The notes below the pieces were generated by a model that did no database searches, was not told where the DNA came from, and saw only the letters and a list, made by a program, of their open reading frames with translations. Source: a virus. Taken from it: a stretch of DNA of 24,860 bases. Each line of letters begins with the position of its first letter. Within the stretch, counting starts at the first letter, position 1. Where the stretch lies: IMG/VR virus record IMGVR_UViG_3300027668_000093, positions 1 through 24,860 of that record; one strand, given 5' to 3'. Made by a program: the position numbers and the translations under genes. This document shows positions 37 to 24,860 of the stretch, one piece after another.

Positions 37-486
37 ATGAGCACATTAGAAAAAAGTATATATGAAAGAATTACAGTAGCTGGCGATAAGAAAGCGCCTA
101 ATAAGCCTCCGGCGTCTAGAGCTTATAGAGGACTTAGTACAGTAAACCCAAATAATACGTCAACTACGTTATATGACCTTTCGTTAATTAAACAAGATTT
201 AATAAATCATTTTCATATTAGACAAGGTGAAAAATTAGAAAATCCTGAGTTTGGAACAATCATTTGGGAAGTTTTATTTGAACCAATGACAGCGGCATTA
301 AAAAACGCCGTTGCAAAGAATGTTACTGATATTGTAAATTACGATCCGCGTACACAAGTAAATTCAGTAACAGTTGACTCGTTTGAAACTGGAATTCAGA
401 TTGAATTGGATCTTACATATCTTCCGTACAATATATCTGAATCAATGCGCTTAACTTTTGATGAAAACAATGGTTTAATTTCGTAA
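37..486 (+). CDS. gp25: Baseplate wedge protein gp25 (GPW/gp25 family)
   Basis: This 149-residue protein is a T4 gp25-type baseplate wedge subunit; T4 gp25 is slightly shorter (about 132 residues). In T4-like phages gp25 sits in the inner baseplate next to gp6 and gp53 and helps connect the wedge to the sheath. The diagnostic family signature is visible at residues 69-83 (NPEFGTIIWEVLFEP), with Trp77 and the LFEP turn. It is preceded by the conserved DLSLIKQDLINHF segment near residues 47-59, which fits an N-terminal helix. The first ~40 residues are polar and poorly conserved. The start at 37 is the only ATG ahead of the conserved core; a weak Shine-Dalgarno (AGTAGG, 21-26) lies 10 bases upstream. 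Gene 6 follows 57 bases later, the usual arrangement in marine T4-like phages. Sure of family; role is from family knowledge. Confidence 0.94.
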   Translation: MSTLEKSIYERITVAGDKKAPNKPPASRAYRGLSTVNPNNTSTTLYDLSLIKQDLINHFHIRQGEKLENPEFGTIIWEVLFEPMTAALKNAVAKNVTDIVNYDPRTQVNSVTVDSFETGIQIELDLTYLPYNISESMRLTFDENNGLIS

Positions 487-16000: not shown

Positions 16001-18860
16001 TGTTGGAACTGGCAGTAAATTTAACTTTGATCTAAAATGGCCAATGGATAGAAAAACAACAAGCACAAGTGTTGTTGTTACTGGTGTTGAGCTATTAAGA
16101 AGTGAGTATGCATTTACTAATGTTAACGATGTTACTAAAGGATACACTAGAAGTGTTGGAAGAATAGCATTTACTACTCCGCCTAAATTAGGCTCAGCAA
16201 TAACTGTTACATATAACAAAGATATAAATTTGTTAGATGCACAAGATAGAATTAGTTTACTTTACAATCCTACTACAGGAATGGTAGGCAAAGACATTGC
16301 ACAGTTAATGGATGGTATTGATTACGGTGGCGTTGAGATTAAGAGTTTTGGATTTGAAGGAAGTTCCGGTTTTGATACTGAGCCTTTCTTTACAGAAACG
16401 TTTGATACTTATGATAACACATACGAGGATTTAGTATTCCAGCTAGACGGATCAACTGCTACATTAACTTGGGACACTCCGTTGTTAAGCGGAGTTACTT
16501 ATAACGTATATAAAAATAATGTGCGAATTGATGACGCTTATTACAATGATTCATCAATAGCAACTAATCCAAATGCTAAAATGCTTAGTATTATTGGAGA
16601 TGGCGTACTAACTTCGTTAAATTTACAAGACAACGGTGTATCATCAGTAAGTGACGATACGTTTATTATTAGAAAAACTACAAGTGACGGTAGCTTTAAG
16701 CCAGACACAACATCATACGACACACTGCTTGATGGCGGAACAACATTGTATGATACTGCTAAAGGTATTGATGCTTCGGAAATAGTTGTTGACGGCGACG
16801 GGTTTGTAACTCAGGCTAATAGCAAAGGTCCTGAGGAGTTAGTTCCTGGACAAATATTAGATACTTTAGACTTAAAAGTCGTCCATCGTCCAGTTGAAGG
16901 CGGCAGTACAATTTACAGTGATGTTCATTGGACAGACGGCACAACGGCTATATTCAAATTAGGCGGCCATCCAAACTCTGCAGATGCAGTATTTGTAAGA
17001 CTTGACAATGTTAAAGTTGCACCAAGTTTATATACAGTTGATTATGCAAATAACACAATTACATTTGCAACGGCTCCGACTACTAGACAACTGCTAAACA
17101 CTATTGTTATGGGAGAAGCTGGTCAGAAGATATTAGACATTAACACGTTTAACGGTGACGGCAGCACAATAGAATTTGTTACTAAAGTAGAATGGCAATC
17201 AGACATGACACACTTTGTTAATATTAACGGAGTACTACAAACGGTTACTATTTTCTCAGCAGGCGATGCCTATGGTGTAGATAAAGGATATACTGGAATT
17301 AGATTTAGTACTGCTCCTGCACTAGATGCAGTAATTGATTTTGGATTGTTCTATGCTACTGGTACAAACTTTAGCCAAGTTGCAAGTCAATCGTTTGTAG
17401 CAGACGGAAGTACTACACAGTATACACTAGCAACTGCTCCAATAGGAAGTAATCCTGTTGCAAATCAGACTATAGTTAAAGTTGACGGTAGTATTTTAAA
17501 TGCAGGATACAGTGACAGACATGTTATTAGTGCTAACGTACTACAATACCAATTACAAAATTGGCAGTTAGGATTAAACACAATCCGCGGTGAGGATATT
17601 GAAGTTTATTTAGACGGTATTAAATTAGTTAGAAATATCCAATACAAATGGGATTCGGCTAGTAACATAGTTAATATAACAGCTAACGTAGCTACTGCTG
17701 GACAAATACTTGATGTATTTTTAGTAGCAGATGGTGCATATGCATTTGGTTATGTTGGAGTTGATCCAGATGATAGTTCAACTAAGTTTATAGCAACACC
17801 GGGCGTAATATACTTTGACACTGCTCCTGCACTTGATGTAACTGTTGAAGTAACAACATTTAGTAACCATGACATATTAGACATTGAAAGAATCAAATAT
17901 AATGTTATTAGTCGTACTTCGATAGCAGAAGGAAATGTAGACTTCCAAGAGTATACTTTGTTAACTAATGGCTTTGTAAAATTACGCAAGGAAGTAAACG
18001 ATGCAAGATATGTTTGGGTAATATTAAACGGAACACAGTTAACACCGGCAGTAGATTATTATGTAACTGAAGATAAGATGCATATTAAGATAGTAAGCAC
18101 TATTAGTGCAAGTGATATTGTTGAGTTAATACACTTTACTGCTCCGCCGACTAGCCAAAAGTTTGGATTTAGGCAATTTAAGGATATGCTAAACCGTGTT
18201 CACTATAAGCGCATGGACGAAACGAATAAGTATATGTTGAGTCAACCACTTAATTGGTTTGATTTAAGAATTGAACTTTTGGATGCAAGTGGGTTACCGA
18301 CACCTAACAAGACTTCAAAAATACCAGGAGTGGTATTTATTAATGGTGAGAGAATTGAGTATTTTGTGAAACAAGGCAACACTTTGAGACAGTTACGCAG
18401 AGGAACGCTAGGAACAGGTGTTAACACCATCTATCCAGCTGGAACTTTAGCTATGGAGCAAAGCATTGGCCAAACAATTCCTTACAAAGACGAAACACTT
18501 ACTCAAATACTTACAGCAGACGGTACGTCTACTGCATATGAGTTAGATTTTATACCTAACAATATAAATGAATTTGAAGTATTTGTAGCAGGAAAGCGTT
18601 TAAGGAAGAACGCAATAACAATCTTTAACCCAACAGTTGACTTAGATAGTCCAGAGGGTGATGAAACTTCCGTAGCAGAGTTTAGTGTAGACGGTACTAC
18701 TAGTACATTAACGCTTACAACTGCTCCTTTAGAGAATCAAAAGATTATTATAATAAGAAAACTAGGTAAACTTTGGACAGACGTCGGAACTAGCCTTGCT
18801 AACCAAGAAAATGACATTGCACGGTTCCTTCGAGCGAAAGTTACGGAGCTAGTCAAATAA
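4092..18860 (+). CDS. Giant modular virion structural protein (4,922 aa)
   Basis: This intact ORF resembles the very large structural proteins that follow gp6 in marine T4-like phages, where T4 has genes 7-10. Recognisable conserved blocks include LLPRYFRTEANTKFLNATL (25-43), WNPNLDWDKLTNFREYYWLP (133-152), a NQQPLFELFDDYG block, PHTHPWEMLGF (1124-1134) with WW at 1139-1140, GYQKRQYLENIINDDVSQYK in the block at ~1743-1833, and PGVVFINGERIEYF (from 4745). Between these sit added modules: a cupredoxin-like domain (193-273), four CBM5/12-like modules, FG-GAP-like propeller blades (2098-2180 and 2735-3082), two Gly-rich repeats (3488-3568, 3860-3924), a weak FN3-like segment (~4117-4155) and beta-rich DGST repeats (~4350-4922). 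By eye I count only four cysteines. There is no signal peptide or membrane segment. The likely place is the baseplate periphery; a wedge (gp7-like) plus host-adhesion role is inference. Confidence 0.9.
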   Translation: MAYNNDQNEYPLPVNGKSNRKSAELLPRYFRTEANTKFLNATLDQLTKPGTAKKLNGYFGRKTANAYTPNDLYIGDISSQRETHQLEPALVSKDILNNVLFYKDYNDFRNQLDILGATVSNESLLNSQEYYAWNPNLDWDKLTNFREYYWLPSGPAPISIFGQNDDVTSTYTVTSVDNAGNKGYVFNGNLTQNPTLELYRGQTYMFDVSAPGLPFTIRTSRQIESDNEYAIGITNSGTDLGTVEFTVPLNAPERLYYVSETDVNTGGTLRIADIESNTSIDVVSDILGKKTYTTANGFSLMNGMKLKFEGTVIPKKYATNTWYVEGVGDKIVLIKDSDLVISQAYSADVEVLFDANDFDNLPYSTASSYAATKDYIVINRASSDKNAWSRNNRWFHKSVLEKTAELNGEVFDIDQSARAKRPVIEFIAGLKLFEFGTEAKTENVNLVDTFTKDAFSTISGADGYSIDGVDVTDGMRILFTADTDLLVNNNIYKVKFIKHNSTVAQIALVDETDTTPINNQVALITQGTNAGKQYYYNGTSWKLAQYKSSTNQQPLFELFDDYGISYSNATTYPVSNFAGNKIFSYKVGTGKNDVELGFPITYRALENVGDITFDFNLASEKFSYQLDNVPYNKTTEIGFCKTYTDIDSFTYCNGWTKAKTNTVQKVIRQYDVTTVTTDFAIDTYNNSGSLTDLTVAVQVNSAWRFDYTLVNVNGVMTVRFTTAIPAKSSVIIKTNSDTIKNANGYYEFPHAMEKNPQNDKLTSFTLGEVNDHVFSMIEDMPGFTGIFPGPSNLSNLGNVNSYGKKFLQYAGSSNISTYHVTDRDANIIKAIDHSRREYRKFKRSFMQAADTLGYDGPTKQHVDLVLKSVNKDKTNTHPYHFSDMIPFEGSKRLEFTVYDIENTFFSLSETFSLATLSSKAVLVYQNGIQLIHNKDYTFNTDGFVVISATKVKDDLIEIYEFGNTDGSYVPPTPSKLGLYPVFYPAIINDNTYLTTTKVIQGHDGSKTVAYDDYRDELLLELEKRIYNNIKVKYDTTRLDVNDFIPGIDRDTKFTKTQVDAGMMRDFVQWTESLGDVNYTDSSSFYTRDNSFTWNYSNMASWDGKAITGFWRSVYKQAFDTDRPHTHPWEMLGFTIMPTWWETTYGPAPYTSDNLVLWEDLQEGRVKATGVPIEIITKYKRSKLLTHIPVDEFGDLLSPQSAGFTSGFVSENIDASFKFGDEAPAETAWRRSGEYPFSLIKSWILNQPNKVIGLGFDTSRMKKSLSGQWIYTASNKAITPTDIVYPNIITDPAEVLTSGLINYVIEYLTSEATTDVASYKEQFKLVKNQLGIKLGSFTDKEKLKFILDSRTPFNKGNVFLPKENYNIFLNTSSPLTVASYSGVMIELAPSGYIVRGYNSTNPVFTYLDPRSTSTDPNINVGGVSETYLEWTGGQRYVVGSNVQYNNVFFRVKTNHTSTESFESANFQKLAELPMVGGATATYRKAFTTDKIDVPYGTLFKTVQEVVDFILGYGAYLESQGFTFNYYNPESQVVEDWKLSTKEFLYFTTQNWTAGTVLSISPSATKLEFKASYTTTDDLYNSFYNYSILNANGEKISENLTRLNREDSVFQMQLKDSSEGIYHVILPQVQVEHVAVLDNISDFKDVIYSPATGYRQERIKVLGYVAAGWDGSLNIPGFVFDQAEVTEWASWKDYAIGDVVKYKEFYYSALIEAVGTETFVATSWARLESKPTPKLMPNLDYRVNQFADFYDLDSDNFDAEQQKMAQHLTGYQKRQYLENIINDDVSQYKFYQGMIADKGTRNAIDKLFDSLASADKDSIDFYEEWAIKSAQYGASTGFEEIEYQLDESKFRLEPQPIELVDVVPTATTDLVYRVPHHDVFLKPANYETTRLPTKYLNNEYIKTVGYVTSDDVDRAVTTKAGILNFATTDIDKGAYVWVSTDNQSWDVLKHFNSNLVVNTITQEATTITLNCDKTVDVAIGDIIGLYNVDQIVGTDTVATAVEAFYTVTDVYNNKIEFVSDNNDWEKIGTLTNVNGIITKFTSQRVATLATANDLSTKDLQSLEIIWVDDDDSGKWRVIKNTPVYSQAQTIKSSLSLDSTQHNFGHSIAVNDSNTLLAVGIPNKGNGEVHIFKRSSDANNLVFDQTISAPITYVDVGTSQQFGESVSFSPDGKYLIIGSPYASNVKTAYKGTYVPGNNYNKNDIIKSGPNLFKAVSVIDGAVDAIPYTTFNSYPDLVSETDSTLLNLLQTGNYKLNSKTNTTHLLVRGPKEAYEGSKVGDSIVLKWNSNSNINTQGYDVAVEPFDGQFTPITGAFLTDTHAITAKVENVLHIANFQNLPGVGQTVNSAVASGIVAYVGDSDGAAIVYVSNVNGSFASTGQLSIGSIAVGDYTEDYVDPTAEVGGYWMITTPAYETAADSSNIFTDPGNGLVYQDIIKEGSGRSPNYYYNIQDNITAIGVKASLNDQVSFIESFTYEGDPNEVFAVQNSTKWAIRVPKVLSDTLSNTDQFYLFLDNHSGVVDLTNTAFTFGITNKQHTIYDMWDGYIDFVFDNFSTINQLPFEPAVGDTVRDASSGATAEVVFYKREFNDIRIYVKNVTGTWSLGDNWGQTADIIRSGSPDRTMGEIKATSLGSAVVGKILVINESTNFANVATTELLDKEYWIYDEITLQGIARGANVPSSNNNDWSQVNNIVASNATNASVSGLTEEGMISVYTINEVNQFDINSSYVMPERENHKHFGDEIQITQVDKLYKVAVASGGNDTQSNPGSIHFIKHGSFNTVGNTVETYNWQLDVNPLFRGVFNSTTFYKVGEIVNYLGTMYSANINIASGLAFVASNWTALTATTSHVGYIPSTPEQLVIGEGIYTPEGGIRDFARRFDQDKLGQVLITSTKIQGNDSTGSRAVNVYRQVNGQFTLSQTIEAPYLDVSTDTLTGYADTISISADGTMIAIGEPYNNSVATAQGKVYLYKLTGGTFVLSQTLYSHNNEVAEQFGSAVSFDGNQLAVTSLQGDIDTLTTYDTDTTYFDNKFTNFKNSMMDSGVVYVYERINETLVYAEEFIFDDYSSMAFGKNLLVSNNHVYASMPRMTDYNTYQGMVVDYRKVIGTTAWVTHRSPLDQVDLSNIKSAFLYNTKTNTLIADIDVIDPVQGRIPGIAEQELSFKTYYDPASFNIGNDSVVVDTLAGWTKQAVGKLWWDLSAVKYYNYYQNDITYQTNFWGELFPGTSIDVYEWVETEFLPSEWDTITDTEEGIATGISGLSKYGDTAYSEALVWDEVSATSRKTYYYWVLNKKTTPNVESRTMSAQAVQTLIKDPAGAGHKFVALMSKDRFALFNVANSMTDTDVALNIRYWTTANKNQNIHNEYQMISQGVASSKPNKDIERKWFDSLIGYDSKDRIIPDPALSVKTKYGIQDRPRQGMFVNRAEALKQIIERTNDILAKTIIVDEFNIIDLVKNDPVPSASTQLYDAVIDTYEDIAFLGIANKTVPTLTPTVVDGKLKQILITASGRGYIDSTYVSGTRKGPKITVTGIGTGAEVECTLNELGQISTVTIVNAGKGYDNSTVLTVRNFTVLVKSDINVSNKWSMYQLVAGKWIRNISQRFDTNLYWNYKDWYATGYNSFTSVVDLITASYQLDGIVNDIGDTVKIENVGSGGWLLLEKIKNEVDVDYTVNYKTVGKQNATIAFTESLYNVNTSKIGFDSNNYDTVFFDAQPVTETRIILETIRDHLFVDNLEVEYNNLFLASVRYAFSEQPNIDWAFKSSFVKAQHNLGKLAQRVTFKNDNLESYQTYINEVKPYKTKVREYVSSYNNTDLTQSTISDFDLPPKYSIADGKIKASSAKASDIAVYGERAVSSYPDKHWFDNVGYQITSVEIGNKGSAYNLPPVIRFEGGGGTGATAKAFLNNGKLSKIQVLTPGSGYISAPTIIVEGGLSNTGTIGNATAILGNGVVRGTKVSFKFDRVSGLPYITTLATTETFVGTGSKFNFDLKWPMDRKTTSTSVVVTGVELLRSEYAFTNVNDVTKGYTRSVGRIAFTTPPKLGSAITVTYNKDINLLDAQDRISLLYNPTTGMVGKDIAQLMDGIDYGGVEIKSFGFEGSSGFDTEPFFTETFDTYDNTYEDLVFQLDGSTATLTWDTPLLSGVTYNVYKNNVRIDDAYYNDSSIATNPNAKMLSIIGDGVLTSLNLQDNGVSSVSDDTFIIRKTTSDGSFKPDTTSYDTLLDGGTTLYDTAKGIDASEIVVDGDGFVTQANSKGPEELVPGQILDTLDLKVVHRPVEGGSTIYSDVHWTDGTTAIFKLGGHPNSADAVFVRLDNVKVAPSLYTVDYANNTITFATAPTTRQLLNTIVMGEAGQKILDINTFNGDGSTIEFVTKVEWQSDMTHFVNINGVLQTVTIFSAGDAYGVDKGYTGIRFSTAPALDAVIDFGLFYATGTNFSQVASQSFVADGSTTQYTLATAPIGSNPVANQTIVKVDGSILNAGYSDRHVISANVLQYQLQNWQLGLNTIRGEDIEVYLDGIKLVRNIQYKWDSASNIVNITANVATAGQILDVFLVADGAYAFGYVGVDPDDSSTKFIATPGVIYFDTAPALDVTVEVTTFSNHDILDIERIKYNVISRTSIAEGNVDFQEYTLLTNGFVKLRKEVNDARYVWVILNGTQLTPAVDYYVTEDKMHIKIVSTISASDIVELIHFTAPPTSQKFGFRQFKDMLNRVHYKRMDETNKYMLSQPLNWFDLRIELLDASGLPTPNKTSKIPGVVFINGERIEYFVKQGNTLRQLRRGTLGTGVNTIYPAGTLAMEQSIGQTIPYKDETLTQILTADGTSTAYELDFIPNNINEFEVFVAGKRLRKNAITIFNPTVDLDSPEGDETSVAEFSVDGTTSTLTLTTAPLENQKIIIIRKLGKLWTDVGTSLANQENDIARFLRAKVTELVK
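4668..4910 (+). other. Cupredoxin-like domain lacking metal ligands
   Basis: Residues 193-273 of the giant protein have the outline of the small cupredoxin-like domain seen in marine phage structural proteins: NPTLELYRGQTYMFDVS, then GLPFTIRT, GITNSGT, VEFTVPLNAPERLYY and a GGTLRI end. Family members as I know them carry GHPF and a C-x2-H-x2-MGG motif. Here the equivalent positions are Leu213, Ser259, Asp262 and Thr265, so no copper site is expected. The fold assignment is by pattern only. Confidence 0.6.
7336..7595 (+). other. Conserved Trp-rich block of giant protein
   Basis: Residues ~1082-1168 contain a dense series of aromatic residues and the motifs PHTHPWEMLGF and PTWWETTYGPAPYTSDN followed by LVLWEDL. 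I know this block as highly conserved in the giant structural proteins of marine T4-like phages, but no function is established to my knowledge. It separates two regions of accessory modules and may be part of the protein's structural core. Confidence 0.6.
8367..8507 (+). other. CBM5/12-like module 1
   Basis: Residues 1426-1472 follow the pattern W-x-GGQRYVVGSNVQYNN-x-FFRVKTNHTS ending in NFQKLAELP. This is the Trp, Tyr-x-x-Gly-x-x-Val, Tyr/Phe-Tyr/Phe outline of carbohydrate-binding module family 5/12, about 45 residues long. Sugar binding is inferred. Confidence 0.5.
9147..9278 (+). other. CBM5/12-like module 2
   Basis: Residues 1686-1729 read WASWKDYAIGDVVKYKEFYY followed by a TETF segment and TSWARLES. 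The paired Trp, YAIGDVV and terminal W-x-x-L are the clearest match among the four CBM5/12-like modules in this protein. It directly precedes the conserved block at ~1743. Confidence 0.6.
9319..9590 (+). other. Conserved helical block, possible gp7-like core
   Basis: Residues ~1743-1833 are charged and predicted helical by eye, with EQQKMAQHLTGYQKRQYLEN, then KFYQGMIADKGTRNAIDKLF and DFYEEWAIKSAQYG. The KGT...IDKLF pattern recalls the YSTKGIEASYKFLFKVLY segment near the C-terminal part of T4 gp7, which belongs to the wedge core. The resemblance is short, so the gp7 link is a hypothesis; conservation in marine T4-like giant proteins is known to me. Confidence 0.5.
10383..10637 (+). other. FG-GAP-like beta-propeller blades, first group
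   Basis: Two blades are visible at residues ~2098-2180: NFGHSIAVNDSNTLLAVGIP with GEVHIFKR, and QFGESVSFSPDGKYLIIGSP. This is the integrin-type FG-GAP pattern (FG-x-S-V-x-x-x-DG-x-x-L-x-x-G-x-P, then a VyxF strand). Calcium-binding DxDxDG loops typical of integrins are not evident. Confidence 0.6.
10647..10745 (+). other. CBM5/12-like module 3
   Basis: Residues 2186-2218 contain YKGTYVPGNNYNKNDIIKSG and NLFKAVS, matching the G-x-Y-x-x-G-x-x-Y-x-x-x-D-x-V core of a CBM5/12-like module. The N-terminal Trp is replaced by Tyr, so it is a weaker case. It sits immediately after the second propeller blade. Confidence 0.4.
12294..13335 (+). other. FG-GAP-like blades, second group, with CBM-like insert
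   Basis: Further blade-like repeats occur at residues ~2735-2775 (HFGDEIQI to GSIHFIKHG), ~2931-2967 (ISISADGTMIAIGEP and GKVYLYKL), ~2987-3009 (QFGSAVSFDGNQLAV) and ~3058-3082 (MAFGKNLLVSNNHVYAS). With the two blades some 550 residues upstream the count is about six, near the number needed for one propeller. If they are one propeller it is interrupted by a large insertion. Confidence 0.55.
12474..12611 (+). other. CBM5/12-like module 4
   Basis: Residues 2795-2840 read FRGVFNSTTFYKVGEIVNYL, then GTMYSANINI and SNWTALTA. The pattern G-x-(F/W)-x(4)-Y-x-x-G-x-x-V, Tyr and terminal SNW fits a CBM5/12-like module inserted between propeller-like blades. Confidence 0.55.
14553..14796 (+). repeat. 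Gly-rich GTGA repeat 1
   Basis: Residues 3488-3568 contain GRGYIDSTY, PKITVTGIGTGAEVE, LGQISTVTIVNAGKGYDNS. The pattern is GxGY...P.ItV.G.GTGA.a...G.I..v.i...GxGY. It is duplicated at 15669-15863. Confidence 0.65.
15669..15863 (+). repeat. Gly-rich GTGA repeat 2
   Basis: Residues 3860-3924 repeat the pattern of the copy at 14553: KGSAYNLPPVIRFEGGGGTG, ATAKAF, GKLSKIQVLTPGSGYISAPT. The two copies are about 370 residues apart and diverged in sequence. Such units are known to me from large marine phage and bacterial surface proteins and look like compact beta units of unknown ligand. Confidence 0.7.
17157..18800 (+). repeat. C-terminal beta-rich DGST repeats of giant protein
   Basis: From residue ~4356 to ~4900 the protein is a series of loosely related ~80-100 residue units that open with (A/G)DGST-x-x-(F/Y)-x-L, pass a strand like V-x-(V/L)-(D/N)G-x-x-L and often close with TAP or a related turn. 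Clear openings lie near residues 4356 (DGSTIEFV), 4438 (DGSTTQYTLATAP) and 4811 (DGTSTAYELD). A conserved segment, PGVVFINGERIEYF with LRRGTLGTG, interrupts them at 4745-4785. Similar units occur in phage fibre proteins; this end may project outward. Confidence 0.55.
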
Positions 18861-18864
18861 ATAC
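18856..18864 (+). promoter_or_regulatory. Candidate late promoter overlapping giant-gene stop
   Basis: AATAAATAC is identical to the site before gp6 and lies 21 bases upstream of the ATG at 18886. The TAA stop of the giant gene (18858-18860) is inside it. It would allow the small protein and the fibres to be transcribed independently of the 14.8-kb gene. Confidence 0.6.
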
Positions 18865-18885
18865 ACATAGCAGTGAGAGAACAAA

Positions 18886-19491
18886 ATGACAGACAAATTA
18901 AATGACACATCAGGAATAAAGGTACAGGGACACATTAAGATTAGTGACCCTGCTACTGGCGAAGTATATGTTGACAAGCGTAACGCAATTCATTATGAAA
19001 ACATGAGTCTTGCACTTGCGGAAAGTTTAGCAAATGCTGGCAAAGGAGCCATTTATGAAATGAGCTTTGGCAACGGAGGAACAAGTGTCGATCCAACAGG
19101 GATTATTACTTACTTAACTCCTAACTCAACAGGTACAAATGCTAGTTTGTATAATCAAACATTTACTAAAGTTGTAGATGATTTGAGTACAAACAACACA
19201 GATCCTGTTAGAAATAAATTAGAAACTAGACACGTAAGTGGTACTAACTACACAGACATAATTGTAACGTGTTTACTTGATTACGGCGAACCTTCCGGAC
19301 AAGATGCATTTGATACTGCTACAGATGCAACTAGTACATATGTGTTTGACGAGTTAGGGTTAAAGAGCTACGATCCTAGTACAACAGGTAAGTTAATTAC
19401 ACATGTAATTTTCCACCCAGTACAAAAATCATTAAACAGACTTATACAAATTGATTATACTGTAAGAGTCCAAAGTTTGTCAGGAGCATAA
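18886..19491 (+). CDS. Conserved small virion protein (201 aa)
   Basis: I do not know an assigned function for this protein. It resembles a small conserved protein found beside the fibre genes of marine T4-like phages, with an N-terminal signature KVQGHIKISDPATGEVYVDK (13-32) followed by RNAIHYENMSLALAESLAN and an IYEMSFGNGGTSVDPTG turn near residues 57-73. The C-terminal half alternates short strands (TDIIVTCLLDYGE, HVIFHPVQKS, LIQIDYTVRVQSL), suggesting a compact alpha/beta or beta protein. There is no membrane segment or catalytic motif. The start has a weak Shine-Dalgarno (GTGAGAG, 18873-18879). It is the first gene after a late promoter and ends 4 bases before a fibre gene, so a baseplate-periphery or fibre-attachment role is reasonable inference. 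It does not look like T4 gp8 or gp9. Confidence 0.85.
   Translation: MTDKLNDTSGIKVQGHIKISDPATGEVYVDKRNAIHYENMSLALAESLANAGKGAIYEMSFGNGGTSVDPTGIITYLTPNSTGTNASLYNQTFTKVVDDLSTNNTDPVRNKLETRHVSGTNYTDIIVTCLLDYGEPSGQDAFDTATDATSTYVFDELGLKSYDPSTTGKLITHVIFHPVQKSLNRLIQIDYTVRVQSLSGA
19482..19486 (+). promoter_or_regulatory. Shine-Dalgarno of first fibre gene
   Basis: AGGAG lies inside the last codons of the 201-aa gene, nine bases ahead of the ATG at 19496. It supports this start and translational coupling across the 4-base gap. Confidence 0.7.
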
Positions 19492-19495
19492 TTAG

Positions 19496-21520
19496 ATGGC
19501 ATATACTATTAACTTTACAGATTTTACAAACAAAGGTAGCATTACTGTTGAAGATAGCACTTTAAACGTACAAACTAGTTTAAAGTTTCCAGGCAGAAGT
19601 ACTACAGCATACGGTACTGCTATTAATGAAAATTTCTTGCACTTACTAGAAAACTTTTCAAATACATCAGCACCTAGCAATCCTGTTGAAGGACAAATTT
19701 GGTATGATAATACACCAGGCAGTGAACAGTTAAAAGTATATGATGCAACGCAATGGGTAGCATCTGGTGGATTAAAGAAAGCACTAACAGCACCAGAAGC
19801 GGCAAATAGCGTAGTTGGTGATTTGTGGGTCGATACAGACAATCAACAGTTATACTTATTTACAGGTTCAGGTTGGGTATTAGTAGGGCCAGAATTTAGT
19901 GGTGGTCTTAACACTGGCGCACAACCAGTTGAAATAATTGGCCAAGACAATGTTGTTTACAATGCAGTACAAGTAGAAGTTGCGGCAAAGCCAGTTGCAA
20001 TAATTTCAGCAGATGCGTTTACTCCTAAAGCAGTAATTAGTGGATTTACTACAATTAGTCCGGGCATTAACTTAACTACTACAAATATTACAGGTGACGG
20101 CGCTCCAAAGTTTGTTGGACCAGCTGATGTTGCAGAAAACTTATTAGTAGGAACTACTAAAGTACCTGCGGCAAACTTTTTAAGAAGTGATGCAGTAAGT
20201 ACAACAAATTATCAAATTAAAATTAAAAATGATTCAGGATTATTATTAGGTAGCGGTAACCAGCTTGCACTAGAAGTTGAAGGCGAAGCTGGAGTTATTA
20301 CACATAACACTAGTGGTAGTAATATTGACATCAGAGTTAATAATTCAGGAACAACACAAACAGCAATCAGAATTGACTCAACTACAAACGTTGGTATTAA
20401 TAATACTGCTCCGTCAGAAAGTTTAGATGTAACAGGAAATGTTAAATTAAGCGGAAACTTATTAGTAGACGGAACTACGTCTAGCACAAACTTTGGTAAT
20501 GGTGCATTAATAGTAGCAGGAGGCGCTGGTATTGCTGGTAATTTAAACGTTGGCGGAACTTTTGAAGTCGACGGTATTTTAACTACACAAAACCAAGCAC
20601 CTGATTCTCCTAACGTAAGAAACATCGGTAACTCGGCTAACAAATACTTAGGAATATATGCAACTACATTTAACGGAAACTTACTTGGTAACGTAACAGG
20701 TACAGTTAGTGGCAGAGCAGGCAGTGCAGATAAACTAGCTAGTAGTACAAACTTCCAAATGACCGGAGAAGTAATTGCTAACCAGTTAATATTCGATGGA
20801 CAAACAGGCGGTAGTACAAAAGTATTTACAACTTCAGTTTCAAATGCATTTATTAGTAATAAAACAAGCACCAATAACACTGTATCAGATGATGAATTCT
20901 TATTAAACAGAACAACAGGAACAACAGGGCTTTATAGAGTTAGCAGAGATACTTTATTAGCTAGTGTTCCAACTAACCCAACAGGCGTACTAATGCCGTA
21001 TGCTGGTAGAGTAGCACCTGCACATTGGTTATTATGTGACGGTAGTGAAGTATTACAAGCAGATTATCCGTTTTTATACACATTAATTGGGTTTGATTAT
21101 AAGCAAGCAGACCAACTTAGTGATAGCGGTGTGTTAAAATTTGCATTACCTGATTTAAGAGGTCGCGGAGCAGTTGGTCTAGATAACATGGGCGGATCGG
21201 CAGCAGGCAGAGTAACAGGACTAAGAGGTTCTGAGATTGGTAACAGTGCTGGTACACAAGATGTTACTATTGGACTTACTAACTTACCAGAACATGAACA
21301 TGATTTAGTTGTTGAAGGAACACAATTTTACGCAATATTAGATGCGGCAAAGGGTGCAGAAAGTCCTACTTCATCTATTACATACGATGCTCCAACAGGA
21401 AGCGGCCAGGGGCAGGCTGTTTCAACAAGTGGCGGAGTAGCAGGCAGTACGGGCACAGCAATAGATACTATGAATCCGTTTATGTCGATGAACTATATTA
21501 TCTACACTGGAAACATATAA
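19496..21520 (+). CDS. Short tail fibre-like protein with gp12-type collar domain
   Basis: This 674-residue protein is a trimeric-fibre type virion protein. Residues 1-~265 are the module shared with the next two genes: MAYTINFTDFTNKGSITVED, INENFLHLLENFS, then two W-x-D repeats (GQIWYDNTPG and GDLWVDTDNQQLYLF). The middle is a repetitive shaft (NVGINNTAPSESLDVTGNVK near 300, GGAGIAGNLNVGGTFEVDG, and NSANKYLGIYATTFNGNLLG). The C-terminus, from residue ~497, is a phage tail collar domain: GVLMPYAGRVAPAHWLLCDG with Cys514, FALPDLRGR, then LPEHEHD with His600 and His602. T4 gp12 binds zinc through an equivalent H-x-H pair at the trimer axis and attaches to lipopolysaccharide; the same role is inferred. 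It ends in MNPFMSMNYIIYTGNI, the usual end of such domains. T4 gp12 is about 527 residues. Confidence 0.9.
   Translation: MAYTINFTDFTNKGSITVEDSTLNVQTSLKFPGRSTTAYGTAINENFLHLLENFSNTSAPSNPVEGQIWYDNTPGSEQLKVYDATQWVASGGLKKALTAPEAANSVVGDLWVDTDNQQLYLFTGSGWVLVGPEFSGGLNTGAQPVEIIGQDNVVYNAVQVEVAAKPVAIISADAFTPKAVISGFTTISPGINLTTTNITGDGAPKFVGPADVAENLLVGTTKVPAANFLRSDAVSTTNYQIKIKNDSGLLLGSGNQLALEVEGEAGVITHNTSGSNIDIRVNNSGTTQTAIRIDSTTNVGINNTAPSESLDVTGNVKLSGNLLVDGTTSSTNFGNGALIVAGGAGIAGNLNVGGTFEVDGILTTQNQAPDSPNVRNIGNSANKYLGIYATTFNGNLLGNVTGTVSGRAGSADKLASSTNFQMTGEVIANQLIFDGQTGGSTKVFTTSVSNAFISNKTSTNNTVSDDEFLLNRTTGTTGLYRVSRDTLLASVPTNPTGVLMPYAGRVAPAHWLLCDGSEVLQADYPFLYTLIGFDYKQADQLSDSGVLKFALPDLRGRGAVGLDNMGGSAAGRVTGLRGSEIGNSAGTQDVTIGLTNLPEHEHDLVVEGTQFYAILDAAKGAESPTSSITYDAPTGSGQGQAVSTSGGVAGSTGTAIDTMNPFMSMNYIIYTGNI
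20984..21200 (+). other. Phage tail collar domain
   Basis: Residues ~497-568 carry G-x-x-x-P-Y-x-G, P-x-x-W-L-L-C-D-G-S and LPDLRGR, the signature of the Phage_Tail_Collar family (T4 gp12-like). The downstream H-x-H pair (600, 602) and the Met/Asn-rich terminal segment belong to the same receptor-binding head. Confidence 0.85.
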
Positions 21521-21521
21521 A

Positions 21522-23336
21522 ATGAGCTATAAATTAAACAAAACAGACGGAACATTACTAGTAGATTTAATAGATGGGTCGATAGATACAGCTAGTACGT
21601 CACTTACTCTAGTAGGTAAAAACTATTCAGGATTTGGTGAAGTTTTAAATGAAAACTACATTAAATTATTAGAAAGTTTTTCAAACTCAACTAGTCCACT
21701 TAATCCAATTGCTGGACAATGTTGGTGGGATACTTCAGAGGCAAGATTAAAAGTATATAACGGCACACAGTTTAATGCAGTAGGCGGGCCGTTTGTAACG
21801 GCAGCACAACCTACAATGGTTGCTGGTGATTTATGGATTAATAACAACACTGATCAAATGTACTTTTATGACGGTGTAGGTGATCCTACACTAGCAGGAC
21901 CAGGATATTCATCACAGCAAGGTAAGTCGGGCTTTATAATAGTATCAAGACTTGATACACAGAGCAGAAATAGAACATGTGCTGACTTATATGTTGGCGG
22001 AACATTAATGGCTGTAATGAGTGCTATTGAGTTTACTCCTGCAACAGCAATTACTGGTATAACTGGCAATGTTAAAAAAGGTATTAATGTTATTGATACT
22101 AATTCTTCAACAGGATTTACGTATCAAGGAGTTGCAGACAAAGCACTAAACTTAATCAAGGCAGATGGTACTTCTGTTAGTGCAGACAGTTTCCTTTCAG
22201 CAATAACAGACGGTAGTACAACTGGATCATTGCAAGTATTAAACTCCAACGGTATTACAGTAGGACCAAATGCTAACCAGATTATGAAAATAGTCGGTAA
22301 TAGCTTTGTTACAGAAAATGCTAGAATTGATGATGACTACATTATTAAGGTTACAAGTTCTGCGGCTGGATCACAGGTTATTGATGCATTGCATATTGAT
22401 GCATCTACTAAGCGTGTTGGTATATTCCAAGATACTCCGTTGCACACATTAGATGTTACAGGTGATATGCGTGTAACAGGTAACTTAATTGTTGAAGGAG
22501 CAAGCGCAAGTATTGATGTTGCTACACTTCGAGTTGAAGATAAGCAAATAGAGCTTGCTATTACAAGTGATAGTACATTACTAAATGATGCAGGCGTTGA
22601 TGATGCAGGTATACTAGTTAGAGTAACTGGTGATGATAAGAGCTTTACTTGGAAAAATGCAACTAAAGCATGGACTTCGTCAGAGCACATGGACATTGTA
22701 ACAGGCAAGTCATATAAAATTGGCGGAACTGATGTATTATCAGCAACAACACTAGCTAGTTCAGTAACAAGTGCAACAGGGTTAACAACAATTGGTACAC
22801 TAGGTGCATTAAGTGTTGATAACATGAATTTAAATGCCGCAACAATTACAACAACAGCACTTGGATTAACAATTACTAGTGCTGATACAATTACTATTAG
22901 TAATAGTAAAAAAATTACAGGTGTAGGTGCTCCTACAGCTGGAGCAGATGTTGCAAACAAGACTTATGTAGATCAACAAATTGCTGGATCAAGTATTTCC
23001 TTTAGTATGGATATTACTAGTCTTAACGACACGCAAATTGCGTTAGTTATTAATGACCTAGTACCAGCAAGTGGGGTATCTAACGGTACAACAGCTAGAA
23101 TACATGGTACATCACTTACAGGTGCGGCGGTTTCAGGCATTGATGTTAGTGCTGTTCTTACTAAATCGTTTGTTACAGTTGATAAAAATGGTACAGAAAA
23201 CCAGGCAGTCTTACAAGATGTTGGATTTACTAATGCAACAGGTACAGTAACAGTAACAGTTGCTCGAAGTTTGAAACAGTTTATTACCTCAGGTGGTAAT
23301 TGGACGTTTGATCAAAACTTGTCTAGTAGCGTTTAA
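21522..23336 (+). CDS. Tail fibre-like protein, paralogue 2, novel C-terminus
   Basis: This 604-residue protein repeats the N-terminal module of its neighbours: GKNYSGFGEVLNENYIKLLE (about 33-52), GQCWWDTSEARLKVYNGT and GDLWINNNTDQMYFYDG, followed by SAIEFTPATAITGITG, KKGIN and a NGITVGPNANQIMKI strand near 245-257. A shaft follows with VGIFQDTPLHTLDVTGDMRV and an ASIDVATLRVEDKQIELA segment. Near 463-490 is ITGVGAPTAGADVANKTYVD, a known fibre motif that starts a short trimeric coil. The last ~110 residues, from SFSMDITSLNDTQIALVIND to the end, are beta-rich and not recognised by me. The start overlaps nothing (1-base gap) but has only a weak ribosome site, so reinitiation after the upstream stop is likely. 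It is probably a fibre or fibre-base protein of the baseplate. Confidence 0.85.
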   Translation: MSYKLNKTDGTLLVDLIDGSIDTASTSLTLVGKNYSGFGEVLNENYIKLLESFSNSTSPLNPIAGQCWWDTSEARLKVYNGTQFNAVGGPFVTAAQPTMVAGDLWINNNTDQMYFYDGVGDPTLAGPGYSSQQGKSGFIIVSRLDTQSRNRTCADLYVGGTLMAVMSAIEFTPATAITGITGNVKKGINVIDTNSSTGFTYQGVADKALNLIKADGTSVSADSFLSAITDGSTTGSLQVLNSNGITVGPNANQIMKIVGNSFVTENARIDDDYIIKVTSSAAGSQVIDALHIDASTKRVGIFQDTPLHTLDVTGDMRVTGNLIVEGASASIDVATLRVEDKQIELAITSDSTLLNDAGVDDAGILVRVTGDDKSFTWKNATKAWTSSEHMDIVTGKSYKIGGTDVLSATTLASSVTSATGLTTIGTLGALSVDNMNLNAATITTTALGLTITSADTITISNSKKITGVGAPTAGADVANKTYVDQQIAGSSISFSMDITSLNDTQIALVINDLVPASGVSNGTTARIHGTSLTGAAVSGIDVSAVLTKSFVTVDKNGTENQAVLQDVGFTNATGTVTVTVARSLKQFITSGGNWTFDQNLSSSV

Positions 23337-23337
23337 C

Positions 23338-23346
23338 GATAAATAT
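23338..23346 (+). promoter_or_regulatory. Candidate late promoter for last fibre gene
   Basis: GATAAATAT contains the ATAAATA core of the T4 late consensus and ends 23 bases before the ATG at 23370. It starts one base after the stop codon of the upstream gene. It departs from the other sites at the last base. Confidence 0.5.
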
Positions 23347-23353
23347 ATTATAC

Positions 23354-23359
23354 AAAGGG
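23354..23359 (+). promoter_or_regulatory. Ribosome binding site of last fibre gene
   Basis: AAAGGG lies ten bases ahead of the ATG at 23370, in the short leader after the candidate late promoter, and decides this start. Confidence 0.5.
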
Positions 23360-23369
23360 TTATATACAT

Positions 23370-24836
23370 ATGGCATATACAATTAATAGATACAGTGGCA
23401 CTACTTTAGCAACAGTGCAAGATGGTACAGTTGATGCAACTTCCGATTTACGGTTTGTTGGTAAAAACTATGCTGGATATGGTGAGATACAGAACGAAAA
23501 CTTCTTATTCTTGCTTGAAAGTTTTAGTGGAGCATCGCAACCGCCTAAAGCTATTACTGGTCAAGTGTGGTATGACACAGCAGTACAAAAATTAAAATTT
23601 TACAACGGTACTAAGTTTAAGAATACAGGCGGAGCAGAAGTTTCTGCAACACAGCCTACAGGATTAACAGCAGGCGACTTTTGGTGGGATAGCGGAAACA
23701 ATCAGTTATACGCATTTGATGGCACATCATATATCCTTGTAGGACCACAAAGTACCGGCAGTGGCGTTACGCAAATGACAAGTAAAACTGTTAAAGACAC
23801 TACTGCAACTAACAGAAGTGTTATTGTTGCAACAATTAACGATGAAGTAGTTTACATAATTAGTAGCCTTGAATTTACTATGGATGTTAGTGATTCATCT
23901 GCAATTACAGGATTTGACGTAGTTAAAAAGGGCTTGACAATGGTCAACACCCAAGCATCAACCAATGGTGTTACAACTACTGATCATGTGTATCACGGAA
24001 CTGCATCTAATGCATTAAGACTAGGCGGAAATTTAGCAAGCGATTTTGTACTAAGTGCAACAGGATCTTTTAATAGTGTTATACGTTTTGCAGACGCTGG
24101 ATTAACAGTAGGCGATAGTAATGATTTACTAATTACTATTGAAAATGGTAATGACGGATCTATTGCTAACCAAGTTGGTACTAACAGTATTATTAAACTT
24201 AAAGCTAACAACGCCGCAGGAGCACTAACACACTCAGCAACGTTCACAGCATTAGGCATGGCGCCTGCAACTACTAACGCATTTGATTTAGGTGCATCTG
24301 GTAATGTATGGGCAAACGTTTATGCAACAAATTTACAAGGCAATGCAACAACAGCAAGTGCATTAAAGCTATCTGGATCAGTTTACTTACCAGATGCAAG
24401 TGCTACAGCAAACACAGCGGCACTAAGAGACGCAAGCGGAAACTTAACAGCAACCTTATTTCAAGGTGTTGCTACACAAGCACGGTATGCTGACTTAGCA
24501 GAAGTATATGCCACTGATGAAATATATCCAGTTGGTACAATTATGGCAGTTGGCGGTGAAGCAGAAGCTACAGCGGCAGCGGCAAGTCATTATTGTATTG
24601 GTGTTATATCAGACAAACCAGCATACTTAATGAACTCAGAAGCTGAAGGTCAAGCAATTGGTCTTAAAGGAAGAGTTCCAGTAAGAGTTACTGGACCAGT
24701 TAAGAAAGGCCAGCCAATTTATGCTTGGGCAGACGGAGTAGGATCAACACTTGCAACTACTGGCATGGTAGGTATTGCACTAGAGTCAGATGACTTTACT
24801 GAAGAAAAATTAATTGAGTGTGTACTAAAAGTATAA
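23370..24836 (+). CDS. Tail fibre-like protein, paralogue 3, YADLAE C-terminus
   Basis: This 488-residue protein is the third member of the tandem family. Its N-terminal ~260 residues match the other two: MAYTINRYSGTTLATVQDGT, GKNYAGYGEIQNENFLFLLE, GQVWYDTAVQKLKFYNGT, GDFWWDSGNNQLYAFDGTSY, SLEFTMDVSDS, VVKKGLTMVNT and a GLTVGDSNDLLITIENG strand. The shaft is short (NAFDLGASGNVWANVYATNL, near 303-322). From residue ~370 comes a domain opening RYADLAEVYATDEIYPVGTI, then HYCIGVISDKPAYLMN, GLKGRVPVRVTGPVKKGQPI and a GMVGIALES turn. I know this type of C-terminus from phage fibres; it resembles the Peptidase_G2 group of C-terminal maturation domains, but I cannot identify a catalytic residue. It has its own promoter and ribosome site. 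Role as fibre protein is inferred from context and modules. Confidence 0.87.
   Translation: MAYTINRYSGTTLATVQDGTVDATSDLRFVGKNYAGYGEIQNENFLFLLESFSGASQPPKAITGQVWYDTAVQKLKFYNGTKFKNTGGAEVSATQPTGLTAGDFWWDSGNNQLYAFDGTSYILVGPQSTGSGVTQMTSKTVKDTTATNRSVIVATINDEVVYIISSLEFTMDVSDSSAITGFDVVKKGLTMVNTQASTNGVTTTDHVYHGTASNALRLGGNLASDFVLSATGSFNSVIRFADAGLTVGDSNDLLITIENGNDGSIANQVGTNSIIKLKANNAAGALTHSATFTALGMAPATTNAFDLGASGNVWANVYATNLQGNATTASALKLSGSVYLPDASATANTAALRDASGNLTATLFQGVATQARYADLAEVYATDEIYPVGTIMAVGGEAEATAAAASHYCIGVISDKPAYLMNSEAEGQAIGLKGRVPVRVTGPVKKGQPIYAWADGVGSTLATTGMVGIALESDDFTEEKLIECVLKV
24477..24833 (+). other. YADLAE-type C-terminal fibre domain
   Basis: Residues ~370-488 form a compact beta-rich unit: YADLAE-x-Y-x-x-D-x-x-Y-x-x-G-T, an IGVIS-x-x-P-A-Y-L-M-N strand pair, GLKGRVPV-x-V-x-G and a final IECVLKV strand. 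This arrangement is typical of C-terminal domains that end phage and surface fibres and may assist trimerisation. Self-cleavage, as in some related domains, is not demonstrated by any residue I can point to. Confidence 0.5.
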
Positions 24837-24840
24837 ATAC
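24832..24840 (+). promoter_or_regulatory. Perfect T4-type late promoter at window end
   Basis: TATAAATAC is an exact match to the T4 late consensus TATAAATA plus the C seen at two other sites. The stop codon of the preceding gene (24834-24836) is inside it. The gene it serves would start beyond the right end of the window. Confidence 0.65.
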
Positions 24841-24860
24841 TTAATATACGTAGTTTGAGG

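Follow-up and report, generated by a model that had tools for sequence, protein, structure and literature searches.

Modular tail fibers with exchanged ends are well known among phages. The virus record IMGVR_UViG_3300027668_000093 of IMG/VR, whose 24,860 bases were analyzed in full and are called the window here, ends in three tandem open reading frames (ORFs), f1, f2, and f3, which open with the same N-terminal module and close with three different ends, the last of them bearing the motif YADLAE. Near the window this trio is old and fixed; the f1 end has been inherited with its module, the f2 end less tightly so, and the f3 end has a discordant history. Judged by its modeled fold, the YADLAE domain probably serves as a self-cleaving folding helper rather than as a receptor head.

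The closest named relatives of the window are jumbo phages, namely Sinorhizobium phage Phosso, Agrobacterium phage Atu_ph07, the RaK2 group, and PA5oct-like phages; we read the family as marine. In PA5oct (gp358 and gp359), Atu_ph07, and Phosso, the same N-terminal core follows a gene of family phrog_11259, and the YADLAE end is found in gp359 and in the Atu_ph07 and Phosso genes; unlike the window, these phages have one or two copies at the locus, with ~60 to 136 module residues in the best match of each gene, and a further three-gene array lies elsewhere in PA5oct. At the periphery of the T4 baseplate, gp9 to gp12 are neighboring trimeric proteins, and a review traces gp10, gp11, and gp12 to one shared fold and gives 23% identity between gp10 and gp9 over the N-terminal 200 residues of gp10 (PMC3004832); the f module has no match to T4 in the PDB by sequence profile, and here three near-parallel genes carry one N-terminal module. 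The tailspike proteins (TSPs) 1 to 4 of CBA120 form a cluster on a baseplate anchor with T4 gp10-like docking domains (PMC8825819), and there TSP4 anchors and the others bind TSP4, whereas f1, f2, and f3 each have their own copy of the module. By AlphaFold2 (AF2) model, similarity to the TSP4 N terminus is weak (probability 0.1–0.3), and the Ackermannviridae-type docking domains XD1 to XD3 gave weak Foldseek rows to 7rfo and 7rej, with the start of the module modeled at low confidence. Finally, Alteromonas phages share fibers and chaperones across families (PMC10579305). The array is a variant of these T4-periphery, CBA120-cluster, and Alteromonas shared-fiber kinds.

Results

One N-terminal module with three different ends

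A preliminary description of the window, made from the sequence alone, had proposed three tandem fiber paralogs with a common N-terminal part and unrelated C termini, and this is borne out by BLASTP, which aligns ~257 to 330 N-terminal residues pairwise (E 3e-42 to 5e-31). The f1 and f2 proteins share 32% identity over 341 residues (E 4e-38), f1 and f3 32% over 293 residues (E 5e-31), and f2 and f3 37% over 268 residues (E 3e-42). Smith–Waterman scores of the first 260 residues, compared with 200 shuffles, give z values of 39, 41, and 47, and those past residue 290 give 5.2, 3.3, and 2.2; the break is thus placed at about residue 257 to 290. It is not clean, as the f1/f2 alignment runs on to ~330 and f1 and f3 have a further 45-residue match (f1 351–395 with f3 281–325, E 0.005). 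The NEN..LLE..S motif, two W-x-D-type repeats, and the FT segment are aligned in all three proteins, and the GKNY motif takes an equivalent form, GRSTTAYG, in f1.

In an N-module tree of 160 rows, built by a quick method, the f1 modules form a group of 31 rows (support 83), the f2 modules one of 26 rows (support 99), and the f3 modules a main group (support 96) with allies. The three modules are homologous and fall in separate groups, in agreement with the duplication on one module that had been suggested. An N-module profile run against the PDB matched no phage structure and returned only two non-phage rows at E 0.1–0.2, a search in which remote folds may be missed. Predicted viral structures matching the f3 model include Mtd N-terminal, collar, Gp10 C-terminal, Gp53-like, and collagen-named proteins, a variety of names that agrees with a single module bearing many different ends.

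The trio is fixed among close relatives

We searched IMG/VR with the f3 module and combined the best 80 of 587 confirmed stretches with the window into a set of 81 records; as these loci were picked by their likeness to f3, the fixed trio described here applies to close relatives only. A hidden Markov model of the N module finds 233 module ORFs in the 81 records, with three genes in 72 records, two in eight, and one in one, and no fourth module gene in any of them. Eight of the nine records with fewer than three genes have a cut collar or f2 ORF at their edge, and the ninth, L048, has no such entry among those listed. All 72 three-gene records keep the order f1-f2-f3, with some genes cut at the locus end. 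Once 14 truncated ORFs and two that are complete but short (L012 and L074) are set aside, the N class corresponds to the expected C cluster in all 217 complete ORFs longer than 300 residues (65 f1, 78 f2, and 74 f3). With no case of an end traded among f1, f2, and f3, the paralogs have not exchanged ends near the window. Five longer contigs (134–185 kb) were searched whole, and the full module matches are those of the array's three genes only, the others being weak and partial.

In the two short cases, f1 is split into a module ORF (209 residues in L074 and 161 in L012) and a separate collar ORF (from 6022 in L074 and from 3196 in L012). The split looks like a frameshift or stop, and a sequencing or assembly error is possible.

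The fixed order and the single copy of every gene type in all 72 three-gene records would also suit f1, f2, and f3 forming one hetero-oligomeric fiber through their N modules in place of three homotrimers. We consider this quite improbable, since single module genes occur in 47 of 165 loci of the wider set described below, as well as in Phosso and Atu_ph07, and the f1, f2, and f3 modules are long-diverged groups.

The f3 end resembles the chaperone domain of phi29 gp12

The AF2 model of f3 (29 rows) has a mean predicted local distance difference test score (pLDDT) of 70.8, rising to 85–92 over residues 381 to 488. Ranked by Foldseek and VIA-align, phi29 gp12 comes first, followed by HFTV1 (Z 12.5) and capsid cement proteins; the f3 end aligns with gp12 3suc over 113 residues (Z 15.4, root-mean-square deviation (rmsd) 2.4, 22% identity), and residues 375 to 487 align with the gp12 C-terminal fragment 3gqh over 107 residues (Z 14.8, rmsd 2.3). 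The first residues aligned are D375 of f3 and residue 692, the first of 3gqh. Residues 689 to 696 of the gp12 record read TWSDFAEY, of which S691-D692-F-A-E695 aligns with the f3 motif. We take D692 and E695 to be the active pair of gp12; a literature search on Asp692/Glu695 yielded only an unrelated paper.

Sequence profiles point the same way. A 30-row profile of f3 ends, run against solved sequences, matches the tailspike Dpo31 (1e-4), its chaperone domain (9e-4), and 3gqh (1e-3). The Peptidase_G2 family PF11962 is borderline on f3 itself, with 24.5 bits for the whole protein and 26.9 for the domain alone at a cut-off of 25, and matches 23 of 30 homologs at E ≤ 0.01. The A, D, A, and E of YADLAE are invariant in 30 of 30 rows.

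The likeness to the phi29 gp12 pre-neck appendage and Peptidase_G2 thus lies in fold, in C-terminal place, and in the sequence S/DFAE beside the A/DLAE of f3. Unlike gp12, the f3 domain is short (114 residues versus 163, with a gp12 stretch of ~50 residues lacking a counterpart), belongs to a contractile-tail fiber where no enzyme domain turned up, and carries A ahead of the D. The tailspike Dpo31 and its chaperone domain D4 (28lx and 28nb) match by profile, with YADYAE where the stretch matched in 28lx begins and DYAE near the start of 28nb; Dpo31 is named a depolymerase tailspike, whereas no depolymerase domain was found in f3. In phi29 the chaperone domain is absent from the virion, as stated in a review (PMC9863714), and the domain of the GA-1 neck appendage is of a Ser-Lys type (PMC3742440), so the mechanism cannot be read from the term "neck appendage" by itself.

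The same domain might instead be a stable trimeric β-barrel tip of the cement and head-fiber fold that is never cut and may bind the host. The fold recurs in HFTV1, Sf11, phi29 gp8.5, and Pam3 proteins (Z 8.1–12.5), the cement families PF22758 and PF09956 match 6 and 2 of 30 homologs, and f3 residues ~299 to 473 match Campylobacter phage proteins, some annotated as tail fiber and one as carbohydrate binding; a receptor-facing part would, moreover, be expected to be exchanged. On the other hand, gp12 (Z 15) and the chaperone domain of Dpo31 rank highest among the matches, and D-x-A-E at the gp12 processing site, with both D and E, is kept in 69 of 69 ends, a conservation partly built in because the ends were chosen by a YADLAE profile. 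We find a stable tip doubtful, if far from negligible. The "receptor-binding heads" of the preliminary description are thus putative for all three proteins, and the evidence on f3 points to an autoprocessing chaperone domain.

The f3 end has a history of its own

Co-inheritance was measured in 72 complete loci that hold the phrog_11259 gene (the anchor) and the triplet, a set that is not identical to the 72 three-gene records above, with the last 130 residues of f3 taken as its end ("f3hd"). Pairwise identities of the f1 module, f1 end, f2 module, and f3 module correlate at Spearman values of 0.66 to 0.81 (0.70 between f1 end and f1 module, 0.81 between f3 and f1 modules), and the f3 end correlates at 0.25 with its own module, 0.24 with the f1 module, 0.19 with the f1 end, and 0.31 with the f2 module. 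Likelihood cross-fits of FastTree trees from 53 representatives, evaluated with the approximately unbiased (AU) test, agree: f3-end data lose 401 to 581 log-likelihood units (lnL) on the tree of any other part, and the losses on the N-module backbone tree are 72 for the f1 end, 113 for the f2 end, and 68 for the anchor. The backbone tree recovers 9 of 21 supported splits of the f3 end, 23 of 24 of the f1 end, 18 of 25 of the f2 end, and 19 of 23 of the anchor.

Sliding windows locate the change along f3. Its correlation with the other two modules is 0.69–0.73 to residue 320 and then falls through 0.51, 0.46, and 0.37 to 0.28 (from 0.73 at 241–320 to 0.28 at 401–480); f1 stays at 0.59–0.78 throughout, and f2 dips to 0.34 at 1–80 and to 0.41–0.48 at 281–440. 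The f3 proteins of L166 and L155 are 83–93% identical at 301–390 and 34–56% identical at 391–480, a sharp change after residue 390. Mean f3-end identity takes the values 0.53, 0.54, 0.59, and 0.60 over a rise in backbone identity from <0.50 to 0.85, and among 87 close pairs (backbone at least 0.85) ends fall below 0.70 in eight for f3, four for f2, and none for f1. An earlier measure based on whole C termini had indicated N-C concordance (Pearson 0.95, 0.94, and 0.82 for f1, f2, and f3; 57 loci); it was dropped once the final 130 f3 residues, taken separately, revealed a discordance that had been averaged out.

We infer that recombination, and not another cause, lies behind the discordance of the f3 end. 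Alternatively, the end might never have recombined, its tree being spoiled by strong diversifying or convergent selection. Such selection would fit the finding that end pairs at least 85% identical on backbones below 72% number 0 of 2359 for each of the three ends, so that any exchange events are not recent in this sample, and it would fit the close pairs, L028/L029 among them, that differ in patches from residue 271 on (271–330 included) with no single clean block. It is nevertheless improbable in our view: other parts change faster than the f3 end, whose mean identity of 0.56 lies above those of the f1 end (0.49) and the f2 end (0.38); 12 of its 21 splits with a Shimodaira–Hasegawa (SH) support of at least 0.9 are missing from the backbone tree; L010 and L073 have f3 ends 77% identical on backbones 54% identical, with f1 ends at 44%; and the module and end of locus L113, described below, fall in different groups.

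Other lineages and exchange on a wider scale

A wider set was seeded with the phrog_11259 gene as anchor so as not to select by fiber, two of these anchor-gene searches being taken to the best 80 matches each; together with the first set it gives 222 distinct loci with the module. The anchor lies at most 100 nt from the first module gene in 158 of 164 loci. Among 165 loci with the anchor and at least 6 kb downstream, in which genes were tallied only inside the stretch at hand, 94 have three module genes, 47 one, 18 two, five four, and one none. Gene 1 of the three-gene arrays has a collar end in 83 of 94, gene 2 an f2 end in 78 of 94, and gene 3 a YADLAE end in 83 of 87 complete cases. In seven arrays it is gene 1 that ends in YADLAE, and because their N modules group apart, with three further rows (support 100), they represent a separate lineage and not f1 with a new end. 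In the N-module tree, the f1 group takes in 29 of 29 collar-ended rows, and the f2 group 21 of 22 rows with an f2 end.

A single module gene, with a YADLAE end, is present in each of Phosso and Atu_ph07, and matches elsewhere in them are only weak and partial. At the PA5oct anchor, gp358 joins the module to a Gp10_C end and gp359 joins it to a YADLAE end, and the two modules are sisters (support 99) despite these unlike ends, which implies a separate duplication or homogenized N modules. The second tandem array of PA5oct, gp316 to gp318, lies away from the anchor and has the same N core (L273:1925–7423, PA5oct 97424–102922); Pfam gave no match in any of the three. All five of these genes carry "ESI-MS/MS" (electrospray ionization tandem mass spectrometry) notes in the PA5oct record, so several module proteins are reported from the virion. 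A second cluster also occurs at L274:2358–5678, in the 347-kb record behind L106, where four module matches lie in minus-strand ORFs of 196 to 325 residues.

C-terminal exchange on this wider scale is supported by sequence comparison. The third gene of the four-gene arrays L170, L176, and L182 and of L131 (three genes in the stretch) forms one group (support 100), with a long shared part 37–50% identical pairwise over ~465 to 620 residues, and ends in YADLAE in L170 and L176 and otherwise in L182 and L131. Locus L088 has a Gp53-like_C end with collagen repeats on the same ~90-residue core. The single module gene of L113 has an N module that groups with other singles (support 100) and a YADLAE end inside the f3 group (support 99); forcing its module into f3 costs 117 lnL (AU p 1.8e-10; 30 rows) and forcing its end into the singles costs 56 lnL (AU p 2.3e-6; 30 rows), p values that are optimistic because the group was chosen after the first trees had been seen. 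In a near-single group (six of seven rows) the ends look split (AU p 0.085), and exchange is not claimed there. Finally, f3 matches the listed Campylobacter phage rows within residues ~299 to 473 only, so the YADLAE domain also occurs on other proteins.

These results bear on the model of the preliminary description, in which interchangeable receptor-binding heads are traded between the three genes on one attachment module. The shared module with differing ends, the ~90-residue core that in distant phages carries collar, Gp10_C, Gp53-like_C with collagen, or YADLAE ends, and the extra third gene all fit it; the 217 of 217 ORFs without a paralog trade, the f1 end that tracks its module, and an f3 end that is a chaperone-type domain and not a known adhesin do not, and we hold the model to be unlikely. 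C-terminal exchange itself survives at the wider scale, where it draws on the decoupled f3 end, L113, the extra third gene, and the other end families on the core; it is not seen among the paralogs near the window, and all 29 collar rows of the tree sit on f1 modules. Ends co-evolving with their modules, the outcome named at the outset as speaking against exchange, are found for f1, in part for f2, and not for f3.

Ends of f1 and f2

The Phage Tail Collar family PF07484 scores 49.5 bits on f1 against a cut-off of 24, and f1 resembles collar-ended short tail fibers such as T4 gp12, which likewise has a collar domain. The f2 end has no Pfam match at E ≤ 1, and its AF2 model (mean pLDDT 65) has no Foldseek match with E ≤ 0.001; profile positions 378 to 486 of f2 resemble tail fiber and, in part, tailspikes in the PDB.

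Genomic setting

The genes of the window run from gp25-like through the gp6/J-like candidate, a giant ORF, and the phrog_11259 gene to f1, f2, and f3 (Table 1), and the contig stops 24 nt past the f3 stop codon. The 1182-residue ORF is presumably a gp6/J wedge protein; it gave no match in a Pfam search, and its C-terminal end is a long poly-serine tract. The giant ORF, placed between wedge and fiber genes, has a CBM_5_12 match (1428–1458) and an FG-GAP_2 match (about 2148–2183). Very large ORFs upstream of the phrog_11259 gene are also present in Phosso, Atu_ph07, PA5oct, and Vibrio phage 2.275.O. A search for inverted repeats, as in invertible switching, over 18500 to 24860 found only four short, imperfect inverted pairs (72–81%). 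Relatives of the Atu_ph07 anchor gene sought in genome contigs gave 13 pattern matches, none of them confirmed.

Downstream of the fiber array, Radical-SAM-type genes occur in L007 (16011–20062), L084 (14618–21742), and L085 (15388–22460), as well as in Phosso and Atu_ph07, the relatives with one module gene. The L007 region has three such genes, two barely below the Pfam cut-off and one with a SPASM domain. In 30 of 47 loci with at least 7.5 kb past the last module gene, phmmer gives one to four matches to Radical-SAM-type genes or to the neighboring Phosso oxidoreductase.

Table 1. Features of the window, with positions counted from its first base
Feature	Position	Strand	Basis
gp25-like baseplate wedge protein	37..486	+	PF04965 30.9 bits, cut-off 27.2
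gp6/J-like baseplate wedge candidate, 1182 aa	544..4092	+	TIGR02243 32.5 bits, far under cut-off 155.8
Giant ORF, 4922 aa	4092..18860	+	ORFs in same place annotated structural in Atu_ph07 and PA5oct
phrog_11259 gene, 201 aa	18886..19491	+	PHROG match E 1e-72; directly upstream of array
f1, 674 aa, tail-collar end	19496..21520	+	PF07484 E 4e-13 and PHROG tail families
f1 N-terminal module (residues 1–287)	19496..20356	+	Homologous to f2 and f3 N termini
f1 Phage Tail Collar domain PF07484 (residues 497–557)	20984..21166	+	E 4e-13
f2, 604 aa, end without known family	21522..23336	+	ORF
f2 N-terminal module (residues 1–290)	21522..22391	+	Homologous to f1 and f3 N termini
f3	23370..24836	+	ORF; shared module, YADLAE end
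f3 N-terminal module (residues 1–285)	23370..24224	+	Homologous to f1 and f2 N termini
f3 shaft (residues 286–372)	24225..24485	+	Discordance with other modules starts here
YADLAE motif (residues 373–378)	24486..24503	+	Predicted self-cleavage site A374/D375
f3 predicted intramolecular-chaperone (Peptidase_G2-type) domain (residues 375–488)	24492..24833	+	Fold, PDB profile, PF11962

Discussion

The explanation we favor, with modest confidence, is that the window encodes three baseplate fibers on one socket module, the third with a self-cleaving, exchanged chaperone cap. The proteins f1, f2, and f3 would be three different fibers of one jumbo myophage baseplate, a setting suggested by the gp25-like gene upstream and the adjoining phrog_11259 gene. 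Each would be a homotrimer with a β shaft and its own end, and the N module of ~285 residues would serve as the socket of each fiber, docked near the phrog_11259 and giant proteins. The trio would have arisen by duplication before the clade diversified and then have become fixed, with dedicated roles for f1, f2, and f3; any receptor binding by the three is putative. In f3, the phi29 gp12-like end would drive trimerization and then cut itself off before D375, leaving a fiber of ~374 residues. We propose that the cap is exchanged because its role lies in assembly, or because it at any rate folds on its own: phages would swap it by recombination near the conserved stretch with YADLAE, and the attachment modules and the f1 end would descend together.

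Several points count against this explanation. The start of the N module is poorly modeled (pLDDT 34–49 at residues 1–50), and with no phage structure matched the socket role rests on position and conservation. An hhalign comparison of f3 ends with gp12 alone is weak (probability 31%, E 5e-4), the same fold is found in capsid cement and head-fiber proteins, the choice of ends by the YADLAE profile favors the motif from the start, and A374 occupies the position of phi29 S691, so that f3 may not cut if the serine is needed. The PA5oct mass spectrometry notes are silent on whether the cap stays. As to exchange, the f3 end is not independent of everything, its Spearman values being 0.53 against the f2 end and 0.44 against the anchor; AU rejects all cross-fits save that of f2-module data to the backbone tree (p 0.07), so all parts share some mild discordance and that of the f3 end stands out by its size; and near-identical ends on diverged backbones are missing, with patchy differences in close pairs.

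The analysis adds a large family with a fixed three-fiber array and an exchange signal on a predicted autochaperone and not on an obvious adhesin, and it names the three fibers, their order, and the predicted cut site. More generally, and only tentatively, anchors and adhesin arrays may be fixed in marine jumbo phages, the most recombining part of the host-recognition locus being a disposable, self-cleaving chaperone cap missing from the finished virion. If true, C-terminal fiber recombination would not be readable as a change of host range unless the end concerned remains in the virion.

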